The notes beneath the pieces were generated by a model that saw only the letters and a program-made list of their open reading frames with translations, ran no database searches and was not told the origin of the DNA. Below are positions 30,798 to 40,686 of a stretch of DNA of 64,000 bases, piece by piece (within the stretch, counting starts at the first letter, position 1; each line of letters opens with the position of its first letter). Origin of the DNA: an uncultured Bacteroidales bacterium (GTDB taxonomy: Bacteria; Bacteroidota; Bacteroidia; Bacteroidales; UBA932); the NCBI GenBank assembly GCA_944326305.1, contig CALVDL010000010.1, positions 1 through 64,000 of the forward strand, in the 5' to 3' direction. A program made the position numbers and the translations under genes.

Positions 30798-30915
30798 CAC
30801 GGCCGTCCGGTTTTAGTCCCGGATAATTTGCATTCCATGGTATGCTGAAACGGAAGTTTTTGCGTATGTTTGCAGTACGGATAATTTGTCATATCCAGAT
30901 TAAATCGACGTACAG

Positions 30916-32469
30916 ATGGACGGAAAACTTTACCCGGTAGGGATACAGAACTTCGAAAAGCTGCGTAAAGACGGTTATTTCTATATAGACAAGACGGCTC
31001 TGATGTACCGGCTTGTCAAGACAGGGAGCTATTATTTCCTGAGCCGCCCGAGGCGGTTCGGGAAAAGCCTGCTGATAAGCACACTGGAGGCGTACTTCCA
31101 GGGGAAGAAGGAGCTGTTCGGGGGACTTGCTGTATATGAACTTGAAAAGGAGTGGAAGAAGTATCCGATCCTTCATCTGGACCTCAACACTGAAAAGTAC
31201 GACACCCCTGAAGCCCTGGACAACAAGCTTAACCTTGCCGTCTCCGAATGGGAAGGCCTGTACGGGTCAAACCCGAATGAAAGGTCCCTTGCCACCAGGT
31301 TTGAAGGGACCATAAAGCGTGCTGCCGCCAAGACAGGGGAGAGGGTGGTGATACTTGTGGACGAGTACGACAAGCCCATGCTCCAGGCTATCGGCGACCC
31401 GCAGAGGCAGGAGGCCTACAGGAATACCCTCAAGGCATTCTACGGGGCGCTCAAGTCCCAGGACGGGAACATCAAGTTCGCCCTCCTGACAGGGGTCACC
31501 AAGTTCGGCAAGGTCAGTGTCTTCAGCGACCTGAACAACCTGATGGACATCTCCCGGGACGAGCGTTATACCGACATCTGCGGCATAAGTGAAAAGGAGC
31601 TTCTGGACAATTTTTCGGAGGACATCGCGGAACTTGCCCGGGCCAACGGCCAGAGTTTCGAACAGGCGTGTTCGCAGCTCAAGGAGGACTACGACGGATA
31701 CCATTTCTGTCCTGACAGTGCGGGGATCTACAACCCGTTCAGCCTGCTGAACACGTTTGCGAAAAGACGCTACGGGAGTTACTGGTTCGAGACGGGTACG
31801 CCGACCTACCTTGTGGAGCTTCTGAAGAAGAGCGACTACGATCTGGAGAGGATGACCCGGGTGGAGACCAGTGCCGACATCCTGGACAGCATCTTCACCG
31901 ACGACAACCCTATACCTGTGATCTACCAGAGCGGATACCTGACGATAAAGGAGTATGACAGGGAGTTCGGTATGTACACCCTCGGCTTCCCCAACAGGGA
32001 GGTCGAGGACGGGTTCATGAACTTCCTCCTGCCCTACTACTCCGGAGTGGACAAGACGCAGTCCCCTTTCGAGATCAAGCAGTTCGTCAGGGATGTGCGC
32101 TCAGGGGCCATTGACTCCTTCATGGAACGCCTCCAGAGTTTCCTGGCCGGGTGCCCGTATGAACTGGCCAGGGACATAGAGCTCCACTACCAGAACGTGC
32201 TGTTCATCGTATTCCGCCTCGCTGGACTGTACACTAAGGTGGAGTATCACACCTCAAGGGGCCGGATCGACCTTGTGCTCCAGACAGCGGACTACATCTA
32301 CGTCATGGAGTTCAAATTAGACGGCAGCGCGGAGGAGGCCATCGCCCAGATTGAAGAAAAGCAGTACTCCCTGCCGTTCAGGAACGACAGGAGGAAAGTC
32401 TTCGAGATAGGGGTGAATTTCTCGTCGCAGACTCGGAACATTGACAGGTGGATAGTCAAGGGGCATTGA
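30916..32469 (+). CDS. AAA-ATPase-like protein with C-terminal PD-(D/E)XK nuclease domain
   Basis: The 517-residue cytoplasmic protein begins KLYPVGIQNFEKLRKDGYFY, the mark of the AAA-ATPase-like family (PF09820 type) that is expanded in Bacteroidota. Walker A is RPRRFGKSLL (44-53, the lysine at 50), and Walker B is VVILVDEYDKP (144-154). The C-terminal part (about 440-517) has the PD-(D/E)XK signature: RGRIDLVLQTADYIYVMEFK followed by the helix AIAQIEEKQY. The family occurs in many copies per genome; roles in defence or selfish DNA have been suggested but not settled. It stands alone between the regulator and the protease operon and shows no link to either. Confidence 0.85.
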   Translation: MDGKLYPVGIQNFEKLRKDGYFYIDKTALMYRLVKTGSYYFLSRPRRFGKSLLISTLEAYFQGKKELFGGLAVYELEKEWKKYPILHLDLNTEKYDTPEALDNKLNLAVSEWEGLYGSNPNERSLATRFEGTIKRAAAKTGERVVILVDEYDKPMLQAIGDPQRQEAYRNTLKAFYGALKSQDGNIKFALLTGVTKFGKVSVFSDLNNLMDISRDERYTDICGISEKELLDNFSEDIAELARANGQSFEQACSQLKEDYDGYHFCPDSAGIYNPFSLLNTFAKRRYGSYWFETGTPTYLVELLKKSDYDLERMTRVETSADILDSIFTDDNPIPVIYQSGYLTIKEYDREFGMYTLGFPNREVEDGFMNFLLPYYSGVDKTQSPFEIKQFVRDVRSGAIDSFMERLQSFLAGCPYELARDIELHYQNVLFIVFRLAGLYTKVEYHTSRGRIDLVLQTADYIYVMEFKLDGSAEEAIAQIEEKQYSLPFRNDRRKVFEIGVNFSSQTRNIDRWIVKGH

Positions 32470-32536
32470 CTCCTGTTGGCGCAATCTTCTCACCACATCC
32501 CTATTTTTTGGGATTTACAGGACGGCCTGCACTCTT

Positions 32537-32544
32537 TATCTTTG
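32537..32544 (+). promoter_or_regulatory. Candidate -7 element of the protease operon
   Basis: TATCTTTG matches TAnnTTTG 25 bases before the protease ATG. The nearest TTTG upstream is 26 bases away, longer than the usual spacing, so the -33 element is not clear. Confidence 0.35.
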
Positions 32545-32569: not shown

Positions 32570-34735
32570 ATGAAGAAATTGTTTTTATCTGTTTTCTGCG
32601 CATTGTCAGTCTTTGCGCTTTCCGCTAAATATACGCCCTCGGTGGCCCTGGTGGTGGATTCCGGCACCAGGACGGCAGCAGGGGAAGGATTGTCCCTTTA
32701 TGCCGGGGCCATAATGAAGGACGGCAAGGAGGTCATAGTCATAGAAGATGTATGGCACTGTCCCGACTCGATACGGGCGCACCTGGAGACTCTCTACCGG
32801 ACGCGGAATCTTGAAGGGGCCGTGTTCATAGGGGACATTCCCATCCCAATGATTAGGGATGCGCAGCATCTGACGACAGCTTTCAAGATGGACCAGTCGA
32901 GGGACTGGAAAGAGTCTTCGGTCCCGTCGGACAGGTTCTATGACGATTTTGACCTGAAATTCGATTTCCTCAGGGAGGATGAGGACAGTCCCCTCTATTT
33001 CTATTATTCCCTGAGGGCAGATTCCCCGCAGTATATTTCGAGTGACATATATTCGGCCAGGATAAAGGCCCCTGCCGTCCCGGGCAGGACGAAGCATGAG
33101 GCTGTGGACGAGTGCCTCAGGAAGCTGGCCGCCGCCAAGTCGGGGGCACGCGTCATCGACAAGGTGCTGCATTTCGCGGGGCACGGGTACAATTCCGAGT
33201 CACACCGCGCCCGCACTGACGAGAACTGGGTGCTGAGGCACCATTTCCCGCAGCTGGACAATGACAGGGACGCGCACCTGTGCTTCATAAATTATGATGA
33301 AGACCCCTTCGTGAAACCGCGCCTGAAGGCTGCCCTTGCCGACAGTGATATTGACATCGCCGTCCTGCACCATCACGGTGCGGAGGATACGCAGTACCTC
33401 GGCGAGACGCCTGCACCTGTCACCGTAAAAGACTATATAGAGTCCGTCAGGCGCATCTTCCGCGGCAAAGTGTCCGGAAGCCGCGACCCCGGGGCGGCCA
33501 GGGACAGGTTCGTCTCCTCATACGGGGTGCCGGGCGAATGGGCGGACGGAGTTTCGGACCCGGAGGTGATGGCGGCCGACTCGGTCTTTGCCGCAGGCAT
33601 GGATATGCATATACAGGACCTGGCGGACTTCACCCCTCAGGCGAGGTTCGTGATGCTGGATGCATGTTTCAACGGGGCGTTCCTGCAGGATGACTACATC
33701 GCGGGGCACTATGTGTTCGGGGACGGCGGTACCGTGGCCGTGAAGGCCAACTCGGTCAACACACTCCAGGACATCTGGTCCACCGAGCTCATAGGTCTGC
33801 TCGGCTGTGGGGTGAGCATCGGAAACTGGGCCAAGGAGCTTTTCACCCTCGAATCCCATATCATCGGCGACCCTACCTACAGGTTCGCCCCTTCCGTGGA
33901 CGGGGTGCCTGCCGGTCTTGATATGGCCGTCACGGAACGCAGATCGGACACCTCATACTGGCGCCGCCTGTTCAAAAAGACGGACATCCCTGACCTGAAG
34001 GCCCTTTCTCTTGTGATGCTCGCCCGTGAGGGCGCCCTCCCGCAGGAAAGCCTGATGCGACTGCTCGCGGATGACCCGGACCCGGTGGTAAGGACAGAGG
34101 CCTATGCACTTCTCAAGAAATACCTTGCCCCTGATCTTGCGGAGGCCACACGCGTGGCGCTTTCCGACAGCTACGAGCTGCTTTCGCGCCTTGCTGCCGC
34201 CGTGGCTGTGAAATCCGGCGACAGGGACCTGCTCCCTGTGCTTGTAAAGCTCTATTTCGACCCGTCGACTCCTACAAGGGTGTATTTCCAGGTCCGGGAT
34301 GCCTTTGACCAGTACCCGGCCTCAGAAGTCCTCGCGGCTCTTGACATGGCCCGGGCGGACAGCCCGCTATGGCCGGAGGAGGCCGCCTATGAGGCTTTCA
34401 GAAAATCTCTGGAGAGGTCCGAACAGATGATGTACAGCGAACTCGGGGAACTGGGCGATACGGACATCCCGTTCCGGAAGAGGCGGCTTATAGTCACTCC
34501 GCAGAGGAACAAGTGCCAGACACAGCCCCTTGACGCCATGCTTTCGTATCTCCGGGACGGGACAGACAATGAAATGCGGCTCCTGATAGCCGAGACCCTG
34601 GGCTGGTATGTATATTCATCCGGGAAGGAGCGCATAATCTCTTTCCTCGGCACGCAGCTCGGTAGGGAGTCCGACCCGCAGGTGAAGAATGAAATCGTGA
34701 AGACCCTGAACAGGCTGTCCCCGGTAAAATATTGA
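32570..34735 (+). CDS. Secreted C25/caspase-like cysteine protease with HEAT-like C-terminus
   Basis: The 721-residue product has a signal peptide (1-19). The first 400 residues look like a clan CD (gingipain/caspase-fold) peptidase: GAVFIGDIPIPMI, then SDIYSARI, a His-Gly pair at 269-270 in VLHHHGAED, and Asp-Ala-Cys at 364-366 in FVMLDACFNGAF followed by GHYVFGDGGTVAV. His269 and Cys366 would be the catalytic dyad; gingipains have an analogous C-V-N-G motif. Residues about 470-720 are helical repeats with Asp-Pro turns (DDPDPVVRTEAYALLKK, ESDPQVKNEIVKTLNRL), like HEAT repeats. It starts the operon, 46 bases before a TonB-dependent receptor gene. Protein breakdown for peptide uptake or maturation of its partners are both possible. 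The substrate is unknown. Confidence 0.7.
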   Translation: MKKLFLSVFCALSVFALSAKYTPSVALVVDSGTRTAAGEGLSLYAGAIMKDGKEVIVIEDVWHCPDSIRAHLETLYRTRNLEGAVFIGDIPIPMIRDAQHLTTAFKMDQSRDWKESSVPSDRFYDDFDLKFDFLREDEDSPLYFYYSLRADSPQYISSDIYSARIKAPAVPGRTKHEAVDECLRKLAAAKSGARVIDKVLHFAGHGYNSESHRARTDENWVLRHHFPQLDNDRDAHLCFINYDEDPFVKPRLKAALADSDIDIAVLHHHGAEDTQYLGETPAPVTVKDYIESVRRIFRGKVSGSRDPGAARDRFVSSYGVPGEWADGVSDPEVMAADSVFAAGMDMHIQDLADFTPQARFVMLDACFNGAFLQDDYIAGHYVFGDGGTVAVKANSVNTLQDIWSTELIGLLGCGVSIGNWAKELFTLESHIIGDPTYRFAPSVDGVPAGLDMAVTERRSDTSYWRRLFKKTDIPDLKALSLVMLAREGALPQESLMRLLADDPDPVVRTEAYALLKKYLAPDLAEATRVALSDSYELLSRLAAAVAVKSGDRDLLPVLVKLYFDPSTPTRVYFQVRDAFDQYPASEVLAALDMARADSPLWPEEAAYEAFRKSLERSEQMMYSELGELGDTDIPFRKRRLIVTPQRNKCQTQPLDAMLSYLRDGTDNEMRLLIAETLGWYVYSSGKERIISFLGTQLGRESDPQVKNEIVKTLNRLSPVKY

Positions 34736-34781
34736 TTTTTAGAGTAATATTATTAAACATAAATTCGTCGGACTGACGTTA

Positions 34782-37592
34782 ATGAGAAATACCATTGTCA
34801 TATTCGTATCGGCTCTGGCATGGGCCGCATTGTCCCTCTCCCCTGCCTCCGCACAGGAGAAGGCAGAGATAGAAGGATATGTGCTTGAAGCCGGAAGCGG
34901 GACCCCCGTGGACTATGCATGGGTATTCCTGCCTGCTTCCGGACAGTACGCCATGACGGACGAGAAGGGCTTTTTCTCCATGCAGGAAGTGGATCCGGGG
35001 AAAGTCGGCATACAGATACAGTACGTGGGATTGAATACGGTAGACACACTTGTCACTGTGCTTCCGGGGAAAGTCAACGAGTTCATGTTCCGGATGCAGC
35101 CCTCCGACTTCCGTATGGAAGAGGTGGTGGTGACGGCGACGAGGAACAAGGCCGGGGAGTCCACCGCATCTACCATCAACCGCCAGGCGATCGACCATAT
35201 GCAGGCGTCCTCCCTTACGGACGTGATGCAGCTGCTTCCGGGATCTGCCATGTCGAATTCCGACCTGGGCAGTCCCAATGTTCTGAGCATAAGGAGTATA
35301 GACGGTTCTGCGGCCAACAGCCTCGGGACAGCCCTCATTATAGACGGCGACCAGCAGTCCAACAACGCCAACCTGCAGGTGATGTCCCCGACCTCGAACG
35401 GTTCTACCTCGAACCCGCTCTATTTCCAGAATACCGCCAACAGCGCGGGCGGTGTCGATACCAGGACCGTCTCCCTTGACAACGTGGAGTCTGTCGAGGT
35501 TATACGCGGAATCCCTTCAGCCGAATACGGGGACCTGACCGCCGGAGCCGTAATCGTGAAGTCCAAGACAGGGCAGACCCCGCTGAACATCAAGTTCAGC
35601 GCACGTCCGGAGCAGTACCAGGGGTCGGTTGCCAAGGGTATACGCCTCGGGGAAAAGGGAGGTACGCTGAACCTCAGCGGGGATTACCTCTACACCATCA
35701 AGCGCCCGATAGAGTCATACTGGAACTACCGCCGCTTCACCGCCTCCGGCATCTGGTCGAAGATGTGGGGCGACAGGCTGAGCACGAAGACCACCCTGAA
35801 CATGTTCTACGGTATGGACCGGCGCACCGGCAACCCGGACAACAATGCCCGCGAACTCGTCGAGGAGGGACGGGACCTCGGGTTCAAACTGAACACGACC
35901 GGCACGGTGTCCGTGAACGCAGGATGGCTCAAGACCATAGAATACGGCCTGTACGGGAGCTATACCGACAGGCACTCCTACAAGTCCGAGATAATAAGCG
36001 GAGCCAGCGGGCTCTACTCCACGTCCACCGTTGACGGGTCCGTGACCTCCAGCCATCAGGGCGTGCATATATTTGACAATGAAGGAAACGAGATAACCAA
36101 CCTCCTTCCGGGGACAGAGGACGCCTATGTCACCTTCCTTCCGGATTCCTACAGGTCTGAATACAACATTTTCGGCAAGGAGATCTACGGCAATGCAAAG
36201 GTCAAGGCCGTCCTCTACAAGACCTGGGGAGAGAAGACCTCCAACAGGATAATCGCCGGTGCGGAATACAGGATAGAAGGGAACCGCGGTGCAGGGAAAG
36301 TCTATGACAATGATTCCCCTCCGTCCCCGGGCAGCGGCTTCAGCTCGGACAGGATCCGCCATTACTACGACATCCCGTTCATCAACAGGGTGAGCGCCTA
36401 TGTGGAGGATACCTACAGCCAGAAGATAGGGCGGCGGGACCTGATAGTTTCAGCTGGCCTCCGGTTCGACCATATAAACGGGAAGCAGGCCCTTGCACCG
36501 CGTATCAATGCGTCTTTCGAGGTCCTTCCGGATGTACTTTCCGTCCGCGGCGGGTACGGTATCACGGCCAAGGCCCCGACCCTGCTCTACCTCTATCCGG
36601 AGAACGGGTATTTCGACATGCCCCTTTTCGCCAGTACATCGTCTTCAGATCCGGCCGAGAACCTGGTGATAACCAAGACCAATGTCTATTCCGCCGGGAA
36701 TCCGGACCTCGAGATAGAAAAGAACATGAAATCCGAAGCCGGGATAGACCTCACCATTGCCGGGAGGTATACCATGGCGCTCACAGGCTATTACGAAAGA
36801 TGCGGCAACGGCTATTCCCTCGCCAGGGACATAGACTGTTTCCATTTGGTGGAATACCCTGTGTACAAAGTGCTTGAGGAGAACCCTGGCAGCCTTCCCA
36901 CACTCACCCTCGACAGGACTTACAAGGTATGGCAGAGCATATACAAGCCTTCCAACACTGCCGTGAACAGCAAATACGGTGTGGAGATGGAGATGGACCT
37001 GGGCCGTTTCGACGCCATCAGGACGTCGTTCTACCTGAGCGGGGCGTGGATGAGGGAGAGCAGCACAAGCAGCGGCTATTCGTTCAGTACGCTCACTCCT
37101 ACGGGCGGGATAGAGGGACATGGCGGGATATATGCCCCTGGCAGGATAACGGATTACCGGGAGAGGATGGTCGCGACCCTGAGGATGACGCACAATATCC
37201 CGAAGATAGGCTTTGCCGTCACCCTTACGACGCAGTTCACACCTATAGACAGGTTCTGGTCAAGGTACGGCAGCGACATGTTTGTCAAATACCTCTCCAT
37301 GGATGACGGCAAAGTCTATGATTTCGATCCGTCCATGGCTGATGATCCGGAGTTCAGCTACCTGTTCGAGAACATTGCCTCCAACCGGGAGACCGTTGAA
37401 AGCCGCGTGCCGACCCTTTATTTCAACCTGACCCTCACAAAAGAGATAGGGAAGCTGATGAGGTTCTCTTTCTTTGCGAACAACGCACTGTACAGCAGGC
37501 CGATATACCAGTCGACCAAGAATCCGACCACCCTGATTGAGCTCGGTAACGACATATTCTTCGGGTTTGACCTGTCGGTGTCAATAAAATAA
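34782..37592 (+). CDS. TonB-dependent receptor with carboxypeptidase-regulatory-like domain, no SusD partner
   Basis: The 936-residue outer-membrane receptor has a signal peptide ending at SASAQ-like PASAQ (about 25) and a carboxypeptidase-regulatory-like domain (about 28-105). The TonB-box region is MEEVVVTATRNKAGES, the plug runs about 120-235 (VMQLLPGSAM, VEVIRGIPSAEYGDLTAGAVIVKS), and a barrel ends FGFDLSVSIK. The EVVVTATRN form belongs to the FhuA/Cir-like receptors rather than SusC. It follows a protease gene by 46 bases and precedes DUF4876 and barrel genes after a repeat-bearing gap. Candidate cargo is a peptide, metal chelate or cofactor. Confidence 0.92.
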   Translation: MRNTIVIFVSALAWAALSLSPASAQEKAEIEGYVLEAGSGTPVDYAWVFLPASGQYAMTDEKGFFSMQEVDPGKVGIQIQYVGLNTVDTLVTVLPGKVNEFMFRMQPSDFRMEEVVVTATRNKAGESTASTINRQAIDHMQASSLTDVMQLLPGSAMSNSDLGSPNVLSIRSIDGSAANSLGTALIIDGDQQSNNANLQVMSPTSNGSTSNPLYFQNTANSAGGVDTRTVSLDNVESVEVIRGIPSAEYGDLTAGAVIVKSKTGQTPLNIKFSARPEQYQGSVAKGIRLGEKGGTLNLSGDYLYTIKRPIESYWNYRRFTASGIWSKMWGDRLSTKTTLNMFYGMDRRTGNPDNNARELVEEGRDLGFKLNTTGTVSVNAGWLKTIEYGLYGSYTDRHSYKSEIISGASGLYSTSTVDGSVTSSHQGVHIFDNEGNEITNLLPGTEDAYVTFLPDSYRSEYNIFGKEIYGNAKVKAVLYKTWGEKTSNRIIAGAEYRIEGNRGAGKVYDNDSPPSPGSGFSSDRIRHYYDIPFINRVSAYVEDTYSQKIGRRDLIVSAGLRFDHINGKQALAPRINASFEVLPDVLSVRGGYGITAKAPTLLYLYPENGYFDMPLFASTSSSDPAENLVITKTNVYSAGNPDLEIEKNMKSEAGIDLTIAGRYTMALTGYYERCGNGYSLARDIDCFHLVEYPVYKVLEENPGSLPTLTLDRTYKVWQSIYKPSNTAVNSKYGVEMEMDLGRFDAIRTSFYLSGAWMRESSTSSGYSFSTLTPTGGIEGHGGIYAPGRITDYRERMVATLRMTHNIPKIGFAVTLTTQFTPIDRFWSRYGSDMFVKYLSMDDGKVYDFDPSMADDPEFSYLFENIASNRETVESRVPTLYFNLTLTKEIGKLMRFSFFANNALYSRPIYQSTKNPTTLIELGNDIFFGFDLSVSIK

Positions 37593-37639
37593 TTCCGGTA
37601 TGGACTGTTCGTCATCCCGGACGCAGGATTCCCCACCCT

Positions 37640-37816
37640 GTTTTCGACCGGACAAGCTTTTCTGTCATTTCGACCGAATGGGCTTTCCTGTCATTTCGAC
37701 CGAACGGAGTGAGTGGAGAAATCTGCCGGAGAAGTGAGAATAAACAGATCCCTCGACTTCGCTCGGGACGACAGGAGTACGTTCAGGACGACAGAAAGAC
37801 GTTCAGGATGACAGAA
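37640..37816. repeat. REP-like intergenic repeat cluster
   Basis: This fills most of the 302-base gap between the receptor and DUF4876 genes. TGTCATTTCGACCGAA occurs twice exactly (37663-37678 and 37689-37704), with a degenerate copy before them (TTTTCGACCGGACAAG). GTGGAGAAATCTGCCGG follows. The inverted counterpart is AGATCCCTCGACTTCGCTC then GGGACGACAG (about 37746-37774), and two CAGGAYGACAG copies end the block. Such CATTTCGACCGAA...GGAGAAATCT units are a familiar intergenic repeat in Bacteroidota genomes. No gene is seen here. Confidence 0.8.
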
Positions 37817-37894
37817 GGAAAATATAAAAAACAAATTGGTTTGATTGAATAAAGATATTGATTATCTGAACAATACAATAAAAAAGGAAGTTTT

Positions 37895-39133
37895 ATGAAA
37901 AGATTGATGATGATTGTTTCTGCCGCGGCATCGGTGATGCTCCTGCAGACATCCTGCGAGCAAGGGACGGACAACGGAAGCACCGTATCCGTAAATATAG
38001 AGGTCGTAGCCGCTGAAGGGGTCGAGGTCCCGACGGGCACGGTATTCGACGTGACGGTGACCAATTATGACACGAGGACAGAGCAGACGGCCAGTACGGA
38101 CGAATCCGGCAAGGTGTCTGTCAGCGGCCTTGTGATGGGGCGCTATACAGTGACGGCCACCGCCTCCGTCTCCGTCGAGGGAGTGACAAGCCTCTATACA
38201 GGTACACAGTCGAATGTGAATGTGCTTGAGGACGGGATGACCATAACCGTTCCGGTCAGCGTGACGGAAAGCTCCCAGCTCGTGATAAAGGAGATGTACT
38301 ACGGGTTCAGCAAGAATGCCGCAGGAAGCAACTATATCCATGACCAGTTCATCGAAATCTACAACAACAGCGACGAGACCGTCTACGCGGACGGGCTCTG
38401 TATCGGCAATCTGATGCCTGAGGTTGCTACCGGGCTGGCGAACTACAACTGGGGCGTGGACACCCAGGAGTACTGCCTCCTTTCAAGGGTGCTGAAGGTC
38501 CCTGGAAATGTCGGGGACAACAACTATCCGGTGGCCCCGGGCGAGTCTATCCTCCTGTGCAAATGGGCAAAGAACCATCAGGCGGAGGACGGGAATCCGC
38601 TCTCTCCTGTGGACCTCTCCGGCGGGGAATTCGAGTACTACTACCCGGAAGGCCCGCAGCAGGACGAGTCTGCCGTCAACCTTGAACTTGCATACAGCCG
38701 TACCGAGAGCGCCTATACCCAGTGGACCACTAGCTTCAACGGCTGGGCGTATGCCATTTTCTTCCCTGAGGACGGGGACTTCGACGAGGCCAACCAGCTG
38801 AGGGAACTGAACAATGGCGTAATGTATTCATACCCTGTAAAGGCGGACAGGATACTTGATGCCGTGGAGTGTGTACGTGACGAGACCCAGGTGGCCAACA
38901 AGAGGGTGCCTGACGTCCTTGATTCAGGCGCCATATGGCTTACCGACGAGAACGGGGAGGCGGCAACGGGCCTTGGCCGCTCTATAGTCCGTAAAGTCTC
39001 ATCTACCCTTGAGGACGGCAGGGTCATACTCCAGGACACCAACAATTCATCCAGCGACTTCGAATGCATGACGGCACAGGCCCGCAGATACAATGCCGGA
39101 ATCCCGTCATGGAACACCTGGGCATCACGTTAA
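37895..39133 (+). CDS. DUF4876 lipoprotein
   Basis: The 412-residue lipoprotein has Cys21 in LLQTSC. A beta-sandwich N-terminal domain (about 28-125) with GTVFDVTVTNYDTRT is followed by a C-terminal domain (about 130-412). That domain includes LVIKEMYYGFSKNAAGSNYIH and FIEIYNNSDETVYADGLCIG, which resembles a lamin-tail-like fold and is the recognisable core of DUF4876 proteins. Members are often next to a TonB-dependent receptor, as here. Its stop codon overlaps the next start by one base (TAATG), so the two are translationally coupled. It is probably an exposed partner of the receptor in place of SusD. Ligand unknown. Confidence 0.8.
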   Translation: MKRLMMIVSAAASVMLLQTSCEQGTDNGSTVSVNIEVVAAEGVEVPTGTVFDVTVTNYDTRTEQTASTDESGKVSVSGLVMGRYTVTATASVSVEGVTSLYTGTQSNVNVLEDGMTITVPVSVTESSQLVIKEMYYGFSKNAAGSNYIHDQFIEIYNNSDETVYADGLCIGNLMPEVATGLANYNWGVDTQEYCLLSRVLKVPGNVGDNNYPVAPGESILLCKWAKNHQAEDGNPLSPVDLSGGEFEYYYPEGPQQDESAVNLELAYSRTESAYTQWTTSFNGWAYAIFFPEDGDFDEANQLRELNNGVMYSYPVKADRILDAVECVRDETQVANKRVPDVLDSGAIWLTDENGEAATGLGRSIVRKVSSTLEDGRVILQDTNNSSSDFECMTAQARRYNAGIPSWNTWASR

Positions 39134-40686
39134 TGGGAAAAAGGTTTTTCATAGCTTTTCTCCTTGTCCTGCCTTTCTGCTTGTCAGAAGGGCAGGACAA
39201 GGCCGCATCCATCCTGGATCCCGCGGCGCATGAGATGAACTTCGAGAGGCATCTGTGGTTCTCTACGGACAATGCGGCAGGTATGGCCCTCTCCCCGCTT
39301 GACAACTACAGCGTTGTCTCCGCAGGGTACAGGCATACGGAAGGGGATTTCCGTTCGCTGCAGCGGGGGAAATCGGAGAATCTCCTGACATTCAACACCA
39401 ACGGTGCCGTCAGCCTCGGCAGGACTTTCCTTTGGGGTGACTTCACTTTCAGACGGGACGGATGGCAGGATGCACAGTACAACACCAACTGCTTTTTCCT
39501 CGACCCCGACATGCCATACTATGTCGCCGACGACAGGGCCGGGGACTGGACCAGGCAGTCGTATGACATGTCCGTTAAGGCCGCCTTCCCGATGCTGTGG
39601 GACAGGGTGGTGTTCGGTGCGGGGGCAAGCTATCTGGCCTACAAGGGGGCGAAGCAGATAGACCCGCGCGGTGTCCCTATCGGGTATGCCCTGGAAGTTT
39701 CCCCGTCCGTGGCCGTCATAATAGGGGAGGGGCATGCCATAGGGGCTGTGTTCACATACCGGAACATGTTTGAGCGCAGCACATTCAGCAATGTCCAGGG
39801 CTCCAATTCCTCCCCTGTTTTCCTGATGAAGGGGCTGGGGTTCTATTCTTCCGGCTCTGTATCAGGCACGGGAGGTATCTCCCCCTATTTCTATCCCGGG
39901 AACAGCTTCGGAGGATCACTGCAGTATGCCTTCTCCTCCGGGGATGTGCAGGTCCTGGCCGACCTTGGCTTCTACAGCTACAGGAGGGACGCATTCCAGA
40001 ACCCCCAGACCAGGTACAGGATGGGGACTGCCGGCAAGACGGGCTGCAGTGCGGACATCATGGTGATGTGGGGGAGCGATGTGCGCCACAAGCTCACTTT
40101 CGAGGCCCTGTACACTGTCACCAAAGGGACTGAATATCTCCAGGAGAGGGACCAGGATGTCAATACCGATCCGTATAAGGTTCTCGCCGAGCTTGACATG
40201 AGCAGGTACAGGACCCGCAGGGCCTCCGTTACATACGGTATCTTTACAGGTGGCCGGGACAATACATATTCGTGGTATGCCGGGGTGCAGGCCGGGTATG
40301 AAGGCCGCAGCGAGACCTATTTCACTCCCGAGTCGGTCCTGGAATATAACAATGCCGGGGCGGCCCTGTTCGCCAAAAAGAACTTCAGGGCCGGCAAGAC
40401 CTGCCGCATCCTCGTGGCGGCCGATGCCGGATACCGCCTGAATCTCGGCGGAGAATATGACTACAACGGTCCCGACCCGGACCACCGGGTCATAACCGTG
40501 TTCTATGCCAATGAATTCGCGGTCAGCTCCGCCGACTTCTTCAAGGCCGGCCTTGACGCTGTTTTCTCGGTACCTGTGCGCAGTGTCGCCGGGATAAACA
40601 TCGGCGCCTCCTTCGACGGCATGTTCCCGACCGCCGGTGGCGGCAGCCGCTGGGCCGTGTCAGGGGTCCTGTCGGTATTGTTCTGA
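39133..40686 (+). CDS. Outer-membrane beta-barrel protein (DUF6850-like)
   Basis: The frame opens at 39064, but the ATG overlapping the DUF4876 stop gives a clean signal peptide (MGKRFFIAFLLVLPFCLSEG) and 517 residues. The rest shows alternating hydrophobic strands with aromatic girdles: VSAGYRHTEGDF, LGRTFLWGDFTFRRDGWQ, YSWYAGVQAGYEGRSETYF. It ends in a beta-strand with terminal Phe (SGVLSVLF), the usual signal for barrel assembly. No plug or TonB box is present, so it is a porin-like or structural barrel rather than an active receptor. I link it to DUF6850 from recall of the DUF4876 neighbourhood; the family name is less certain than the barrel call. Confidence 0.7.
   Translation: MGKRFFIAFLLVLPFCLSEGQDKAASILDPAAHEMNFERHLWFSTDNAAGMALSPLDNYSVVSAGYRHTEGDFRSLQRGKSENLLTFNTNGAVSLGRTFLWGDFTFRRDGWQDAQYNTNCFFLDPDMPYYVADDRAGDWTRQSYDMSVKAAFPMLWDRVVFGAGASYLAYKGAKQIDPRGVPIGYALEVSPSVAVIIGEGHAIGAVFTYRNMFERSTFSNVQGSNSSPVFLMKGLGFYSSGSVSGTGGISPYFYPGNSFGGSLQYAFSSGDVQVLADLGFYSYRRDAFQNPQTRYRMGTAGKTGCSADIMVMWGSDVRHKLTFEALYTVTKGTEYLQERDQDVNTDPYKVLAELDMSRYRTRRASVTYGIFTGGRDNTYSWYAGVQAGYEGRSETYFTPESVLEYNNAGAALFAKKNFRAGKTCRILVAADAGYRLNLGGEYDYNGPDPDHRVITVFYANEFAVSSADFFKAGLDAVFSVPVRSVAGINIGASFDGMFPTAGGGSRWAVSGVLSVLF

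Follow-up and report, generated by a model that had tools for sequence, protein, structure and literature searches.

The closest described counterparts of the locus reported here are drawn from several kinds of outer-membrane import system. The locus is a four-gene set encoding a putative exported protease with HEAT repeats, a TonB-dependent receptor, a lipoprotein of Pfam family DUF4876 and a DUF6850 protein, and it lies within a 64,000-nucleotide stretch from an uncultured Bacteroidales bacterium (GCA_944326305.1, contig CALVDL010000010.1, positions 1 to 64,000; the window, in which all positions are numbered on the forward strand). In FusA/FusC, ferredoxin enters through a TonB receptor and is cut in the periplasm by an M16 protease; Fus-type systems are found through the Proteobacteria, with other proteases in some clusters (PMC6793856). 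In Bacteroides, Xus and Btu pair a surface lipoprotein with a TonB receptor, as the window does, but their ligands are small (iron chelates or B12) and the portions of these papers available to us report no protease (PMC13142918, PMC10404256). SusCD and RagAB carry a SusD-family lipoprotein where the window has DUF4876.

The published loci nearest in content are those that contain DUF4876 genes, and these are among the most iron-responsive outer-membrane loci described for Porphyromonas gingivalis and Bacteroides thetaiotaomicron. PG1019-22 rises 20.8-214.5-fold under iron depletion, BT3625-33 rises about 37-128-fold under iron limitation, BT1933-39 rises 3.5-7.4-fold under iron depletion, and PG1019-21 and BT_1938-39 have been presented as one conserved outer-membrane transport locus (PMC10434189). 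A DUF4876 gene of P. gingivalis also ranks with the genes that respond most strongly to haemin (log2 change -5.4; PMC10470040). BT3625-33 shares the TonB receptor and DUF4876 with the window, and differs in having DUF4857, ATP-binding cassette (ABC) and PepSY genes instead of a protease. BT1933-39 unites a HEAT-repeat protein, a DUF4876 lipoprotein (BT_1938, PDB 4Q1Z) and a receptor in one locus, probably in the receptor-first order of the Bacteroides locus L140, and appears in its source by locus names only, with no function (PMC10434189). Judging from the published annotation and the L140 layout, its HEAT-repeat protein (encoded within BT1933-37) may belong to the same family as the window protease.

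A conserved module and its two subtypes

Pfam bears out the identities that a preliminary description of this DNA had given to the receptor and the lipoprotein. No SusD gene was detected by Pfam between 32 and 41 kb, and the receptor's partner is the DUF4876 lipoprotein, which matches PF16215 (E 1.2e-34; 120.5 bits against a cut-off of 27.9) and has BT_1938 as its nearest solved relative (2.6e-51, Z 34). The last gene matches PF21012 (1e-94; 318.8 bits against a cut-off of 27); no solved structural relative of DUF6850 was found, and its product is probably an outer-membrane beta-barrel. Among solved structures the receptor matches YncD, a pyrroloquinoline quinone transporter, at E 1.5e-4, too weakly for a ligand to be named.

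Relatives were collected through the protease, giving 79 named loci that show the company this gene keeps. Protease, receptor, DUF4876 and DUF6850 are together in 66 of them; in 11 of the 13 incomplete loci the contig breaks off, so that only L129 and L133 are true exceptions. The linkage of protease, receptor and DUF4876 noticed in the window recurs widely in these relatives. Three Candidatus Cryptobacteroides species have the set with gene order unchanged and proteins 99 percent identical, which places this gut bacterium in that genus or very close to it. In one of the two gene orders, that of the window, the protease comes first; in the other the receptor leads and the proteases come last (Bacteroides, Odoribacter, Sunxiuqinia). 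Of the 66 complete loci, 28 have a single protease gene, about half (32) have three, and 38 have two to five copies with full dyads of the proposed catalytic residues described below. The four-gene set is a real conserved module across the order Bacteroidales.

In an independent sample of 198 genomes from the order, approached from the DUF4876 side, there were 42 DUF4876 loci: 38 with DUF6850, 24 with DUF4857, eight with the protease and none with both of the latter two (Fisher p 3.7e-4, a value that ignores shared ancestry). On a tree of the lipoproteins the protease label changes three times, against 20.4 times when labels are shuffled, in a count that ignores kinship and sampling by protease. 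Among all the loci studied, the two genes were seen together only in Sunxiuqinia elliptica L144 and in L155 and L158, and there the membrane set (ABC and DUF4857 genes, with PepSY also in L144) resembles BT3625-33. Protease and DUF4857 are alternative partners of the receptor-lipoprotein-barrel core and, since most DUF4876/DUF6850 loci are without the protease, it belongs to one subtype of these loci. The division turns an uptake locus of unknown function into two testable ligand classes.

Several further features of these loci were recorded. The clearest exception to linkage, L129:5469-16866, has five tandem protease genes, some encoding lipoproteins, with receptor and DUF4876 absent in 20 kb. 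In L093, L097, L098 and L100 a single open frame of ~4.3 kb seemingly joins two protease copies head to tail as a natural double protease, and is followed by another copy. Across the whole genomes sampled from the order, a DUF4876 gene is found no more than 12 kb away from 24 of the 30 DUF4857 genes, which ties two uncharacterised families together. A small Cys/His-rich protein (RYSCHCDHAS...CICGAHL...DDCC) is encoded just upstream of the protease at L122:9443-9883 and in 14 other loci; it is a possible metal binder, and one copy falls just under the NCBIfam HYC_CC_PP cut-off (26.7 against 28).

Predicted fold, putative dyad and location of the protease

Pfam finds only HEAT repeats in the 721-residue protease (HEAT_2 at residues 494-566, 1.8e-9). 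An AlphaFold2 model built from 12 relatives (predicted local distance difference test score 82.1, predicted template-modelling score 0.81) was compared with solved structures using VIA-align, which placed the gingipain RgpB (1cvr) first (Z 24.9 over 290 residues, root-mean-square deviation 3.0), followed by Kgp (Z 23.4 and 23.2); the best non-gingipain was separase at 13.4, and the rest of the rows match the HEAT tail. Foldseek with the whole model returned mostly HEAT proteins, and because these filled its listing the gingipain-fold call rests on VIA-align.

His269, Gly270, Ala365 and Cys366 are invariant in all 173 family members that cover them, tandem paralogs included, at identities of about 32-51 percent. 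By DSSP, His269 in the model follows strand 263-267 and Cys366 follows strand 360-363; the catalytic His and Cys of clan CD enzymes sit after such strands. The pair is thus a plausible putative catalytic dyad and, as its residues are kept throughout, every copy looks active. A shifted profile register would make the GHG at 204-206 the catalytic GHG of PorU; this candidate was rejected, as His205 is not conserved and His269 is, and the strand order also fits His269/Cys366.

The relationship to peptidase family C25 is more distant. Pfam's C25 profile (PF01364, curated cut-off 23 bits) does not match the window protease; sub-threshold matches occur in two of 12 relatives, the better at 21.9 bits (E 1.2e-4). 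One of the weak matches aligns residues 372-418 with profile positions 261-311; it thereby spans the Cys382 of that relative, at about profile 271-275, and the Cys of C25 domains in the order lies at 273-277. A profile comparison of the family with PorU-type C25 domains of the order was not significant. Because the fold matches are strong but the Pfam cut-off is missed and the profile comparison is not significant, we call the protein a predicted gingipain-fold, C25-like protease outside Pfam's C25 family.

This agrees with most of what the preliminary description had said of the protein. The gingipain-type fold is recovered over residues 20-448 of the model, the His269/Cys366 pair gains plausibility from its conservation and its position after strands, and the HEAT-like tail is confirmed by HEAT_2 and by structural matches to alphaRep, ARM and HEAT proteins; the label "C25/caspase-like" holds as to the gingipain fold, but not as to membership of Pfam's C25. 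The fusion to HEAT repeats had been thought unusual but is the normal build of the family: all 12 of the first relatives carry the tail, and relatives are encoded in hundreds of Bacteroidales stretches. With the gingipains (C25: RgpB, Kgp, PorU) the protease shares the predicted fold, the succession of the proposed catalytic His and Cys after neighbouring strands, and a GDP motif closing the catalytic region. It differs in a His-Cys separation of 97 residues, compared with about 34 in the C25 domains of the order, and in having a HEAT tail rather than immunoglobulin-like and type IX secretion system (T9SS) domains.

The protease has a predicted Sec signal peptide (residues about 1-19) with no lipobox, and no T9SS-type C-terminal domain, the model being helical to residue 716. 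The T9SS translocon SprA (SprA_N) was found in none of 19 Candidatus Cryptobacteroides genomes, compared with all 12 examined outside the genus, and proteins with PF01364, such as PorU, occur in 87 of 99 genomes across the order but not in that of this bacterium. As the host genus is without T9SS and the protein has a Sec signal and no T9SS domain, a periplasmic location is likely. Some relatives of the protease are lipoproteins, with basic residues after the lipid Cys (CGTKKTT, CGGEKRS); the mean number of acidic residues there is 0.3, against 2.1 for DUF4876 lipoproteins. An acidic stretch in this position is a surface-export signal in Bacteroides (PMC6222051). The CEQGTDN of the window lipoprotein is weakly of this type, and the difference between acidic and basic residues after the lipid Cys suggests a surface-displayed lipoprotein and a periplasmic protease.

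Proposed mechanism and its alternatives

We propose, at a little short of even confidence, that the module is an import set with its own processing protease, which would free iron or haem cargo from an imported protein or peptide. The DUF4876 lipoprotein, probably at the surface, would capture an iron- or haem-bearing protein or peptide; the SusD-less receptor, as its family suggests, would pull the ligand into the periplasm, with the DUF6850 barrel assisting or forming part of the outer-membrane complex; and the probably periplasmic protease, using its HEAT tail to grip the protein brought in, would cleave it and release the cargo, an activity that would fit its predicted fold and conserved dyad residues. 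An iron-carrying ligand is indicated because the related B. thetaiotaomicron locus and other DUF4876 loci respond to iron limitation. The other subtype of the core has DUF4857 in the protease's place, together with the ABC and PepSY membrane genes of the published B. thetaiotaomicron locus. The preliminary description had suggested capture and import of a peptide, or of a ligand freed from protein; we likewise infer capture and import, with a peptide taken as food only one option.

As in FusA/FusC and YddB/PqqL, a TonB receptor is encoded with an exported protease (in the 66 complete loci and in eight loci of the reverse sample), expression is linked to iron in relatives, and only part of the receptor family has a protease. 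The module would thus work like Fus but is no member of it: its protease is no M16 metalloprotease but a predicted cysteine protease with gingipain fold and HEAT repeats, it adds the DUF4876 lipoprotein and DUF6850 barrel and is without FusB and FusD, and it is found in Bacteroidales, while Fus has been reported from Proteobacteria (PMC6793856). It is possible, if somewhat less probable than the general proposal above, that this is the Bacteroidales' own form of protease-associated import, in which a whole iron or haem protein or metallopeptide is imported and dismantled in the periplasm by one to five proteases. If so, the Fus strategy would have been invented separately with an unrelated, convergent protease, extending protease-associated import to Bacteroidales, a fold known from secreted virulence proteases would have a periplasmic job, and a widespread, unnamed family of HEAT-repeat proteases would acquire a role. 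We found no paper that places a C25-like, HEAT-repeat protease next to a TonB receptor, which shows little, as the literature was covered in part.

Several observations weigh against this proposal. The evidence for iron regulation comes from species other than the host, and the induction of BT1933-39 is modest beside that of protease-free DUF4876 loci. Since the best-known DUF4876 loci are without the protease, iron may concern the core alone, and proteolysis may be something else. No Fur-like site is prominent, and scores for Fur-like boxes upstream of 71 module starts are no better than background (mean best 11.68 of 19, against 11.66 for shuffled sequence). Kinship and sampling by protease may affect both the lipoprotein tree and the counts by which protease and DUF4857 exclude each other.

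The main rivals to import with cargo release are that protein or peptide is taken up as food and that the protease has the uptake machinery as its target. On the latter view, which we consider unlikely, the ligand is small (haem, a siderophore or a metal chelate) and the protease matures, switches off or clears the receptor, lipoprotein or barrel. The strong iron response of protease-free cores elsewhere, the alternation of protease and DUF4857 sets, and the frequency with which HEAT repeats bind partner proteins all speak for it; however, many loci have three divergent, active-looking proteases, an excess for a single maturation step, and the lipoproteins of protease-type loci fall in their own lineages, suggesting a different ligand. 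Rather unlikely, too, is the import of oligopeptides or protein fragments as carbon and nitrogen food, with the protease finishing digestion in the periplasm. The gingipain-type fold, the multiple dyad-complete proteases of many loci and, in several relatives (e.g. L110), an upstream gene of S9 prolyl oligopeptidase type would suit such a role, but the iron response of the core's relatives in B. thetaiotaomicron and P. gingivalis (PMC10434189) would not, and there is no SusD-type partner, unlike in the peptide importer RagAB.

Two further readings concern the ligand and the enzyme. The set might instead import some metal besides iron, or a metal-binding peptide, as could be read from the Cys/His-rich protein (weakly HYC_CC_PP-like in one case) that precedes the protease in 15 relatives; this protein is absent from the window, however, and relatives are published as responding to iron and haemin, which makes the reading improbable. 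That the protease homolog binds without cutting, as a pseudoprotease or scaffold whose fold serves to recognise a partner, we judge very improbable: its sequence is distant from known C25 enzymes and under the Pfam cut-off, but families of pseudoenzymes usually include members that have lost the dyad, and here the four residues persist in every member at the divergence given above.

Gene layout, promoter and intergenic repeat

The coordinates of the module are given in the table below. The open reading frame positions of the preliminary description, its 46 bp between protease and receptor, and the one-base overlap of lipoprotein and barrel (TAATG, 39131-39135, joining the TAA of one to the ATG of the other) are correct to the base. 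The barrel start of 39064 in the open reading frame list falls within the lipoprotein gene, and the sensible start is 39133.

Features of the four-gene module in the window
Feature	Position	Strand	Basis or remark
Putative promoter TATCTTTG	32537..32544	+	upstream of protease; fits the -7 consensus
Exported clan CD (gingipain-fold) putative cysteine protease with C-terminal HEAT repeats, 721 residues	32570..34735	+	
Gingipain-like catalytic region, residues 20-448	32627..33913	+	AlphaFold2 model, VIA-align
Proposed catalytic His269, HHHG motif after strand 263-267	33374..33376	+	conservation, DSSP
Proposed catalytic Cys366, DACFNG motif after strand 360-363	33665..33667	+	conservation, weak C25 match in a relative
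HEAT-repeat tail, residues 450-720	33917..34729	+	Pfam HEAT_2; alphaRep/ARM/HEAT structure matches
TonB-dependent receptor, 936 residues, CarboxypepD_reg_2 and Plug, SusD-less	34782..37592	+	Pfam; homologs adjoin protease in relatives
Gap with dispersed genomic repeat, 302 bp	37593..37894	+	repeat copies at 37664, 37690
DUF4876 lipoprotein, 412 residues, lipid Cys21	37895..39133	+	Pfam; BT_1938 (PDB 4Q1Z) homolog
DUF6850 protein, probable outer-membrane beta-barrel	39133..40686	+	Pfam PF21012; signal peptide, C-terminal Phe

The gap before the DUF4876 gene carries repeats, as had been noted. It holds two copies of GTCATTTCGACCGAA, of which 0.03 are expected in the window, and the 35-base form GTCATTTCGACCGAACGGAGTGAGTGGAGAAATCT at 37690-37724 recurs at 31 other sites of the genome; these 32 copies (14 forward and 18 reverse, at up to three mismatches) compare with none for the reversed control. 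Neither a terminator-like site nor unusual folding was found in the gap. Because most other lineages keep about 10-60 bp between receptor and lipoprotein, the operon was probably split by spread of the repeat in this genus. Recurrent words upstream of module genes (CGGAACAGTGC) were considered as a riboswitch and rejected, with no Rfam match at six loci; the words lie at the 3' end of an upstream gene.

The putative promoter TATCTTTG fits TAnnTTTG, which we take to be the Bacteroides -7 consensus, and the stretch that contains it is identical in the sister species L081 and L083. Between a gene for a LacI-type regulator and the protease, the window has a predicted AAA-ATPase/PD-(D/E)XK gene (30810-32485) that is absent from the sister species L081-L083; since L081 and L083 keep a short stretch like its 3' end, the gene was probably lost from them.

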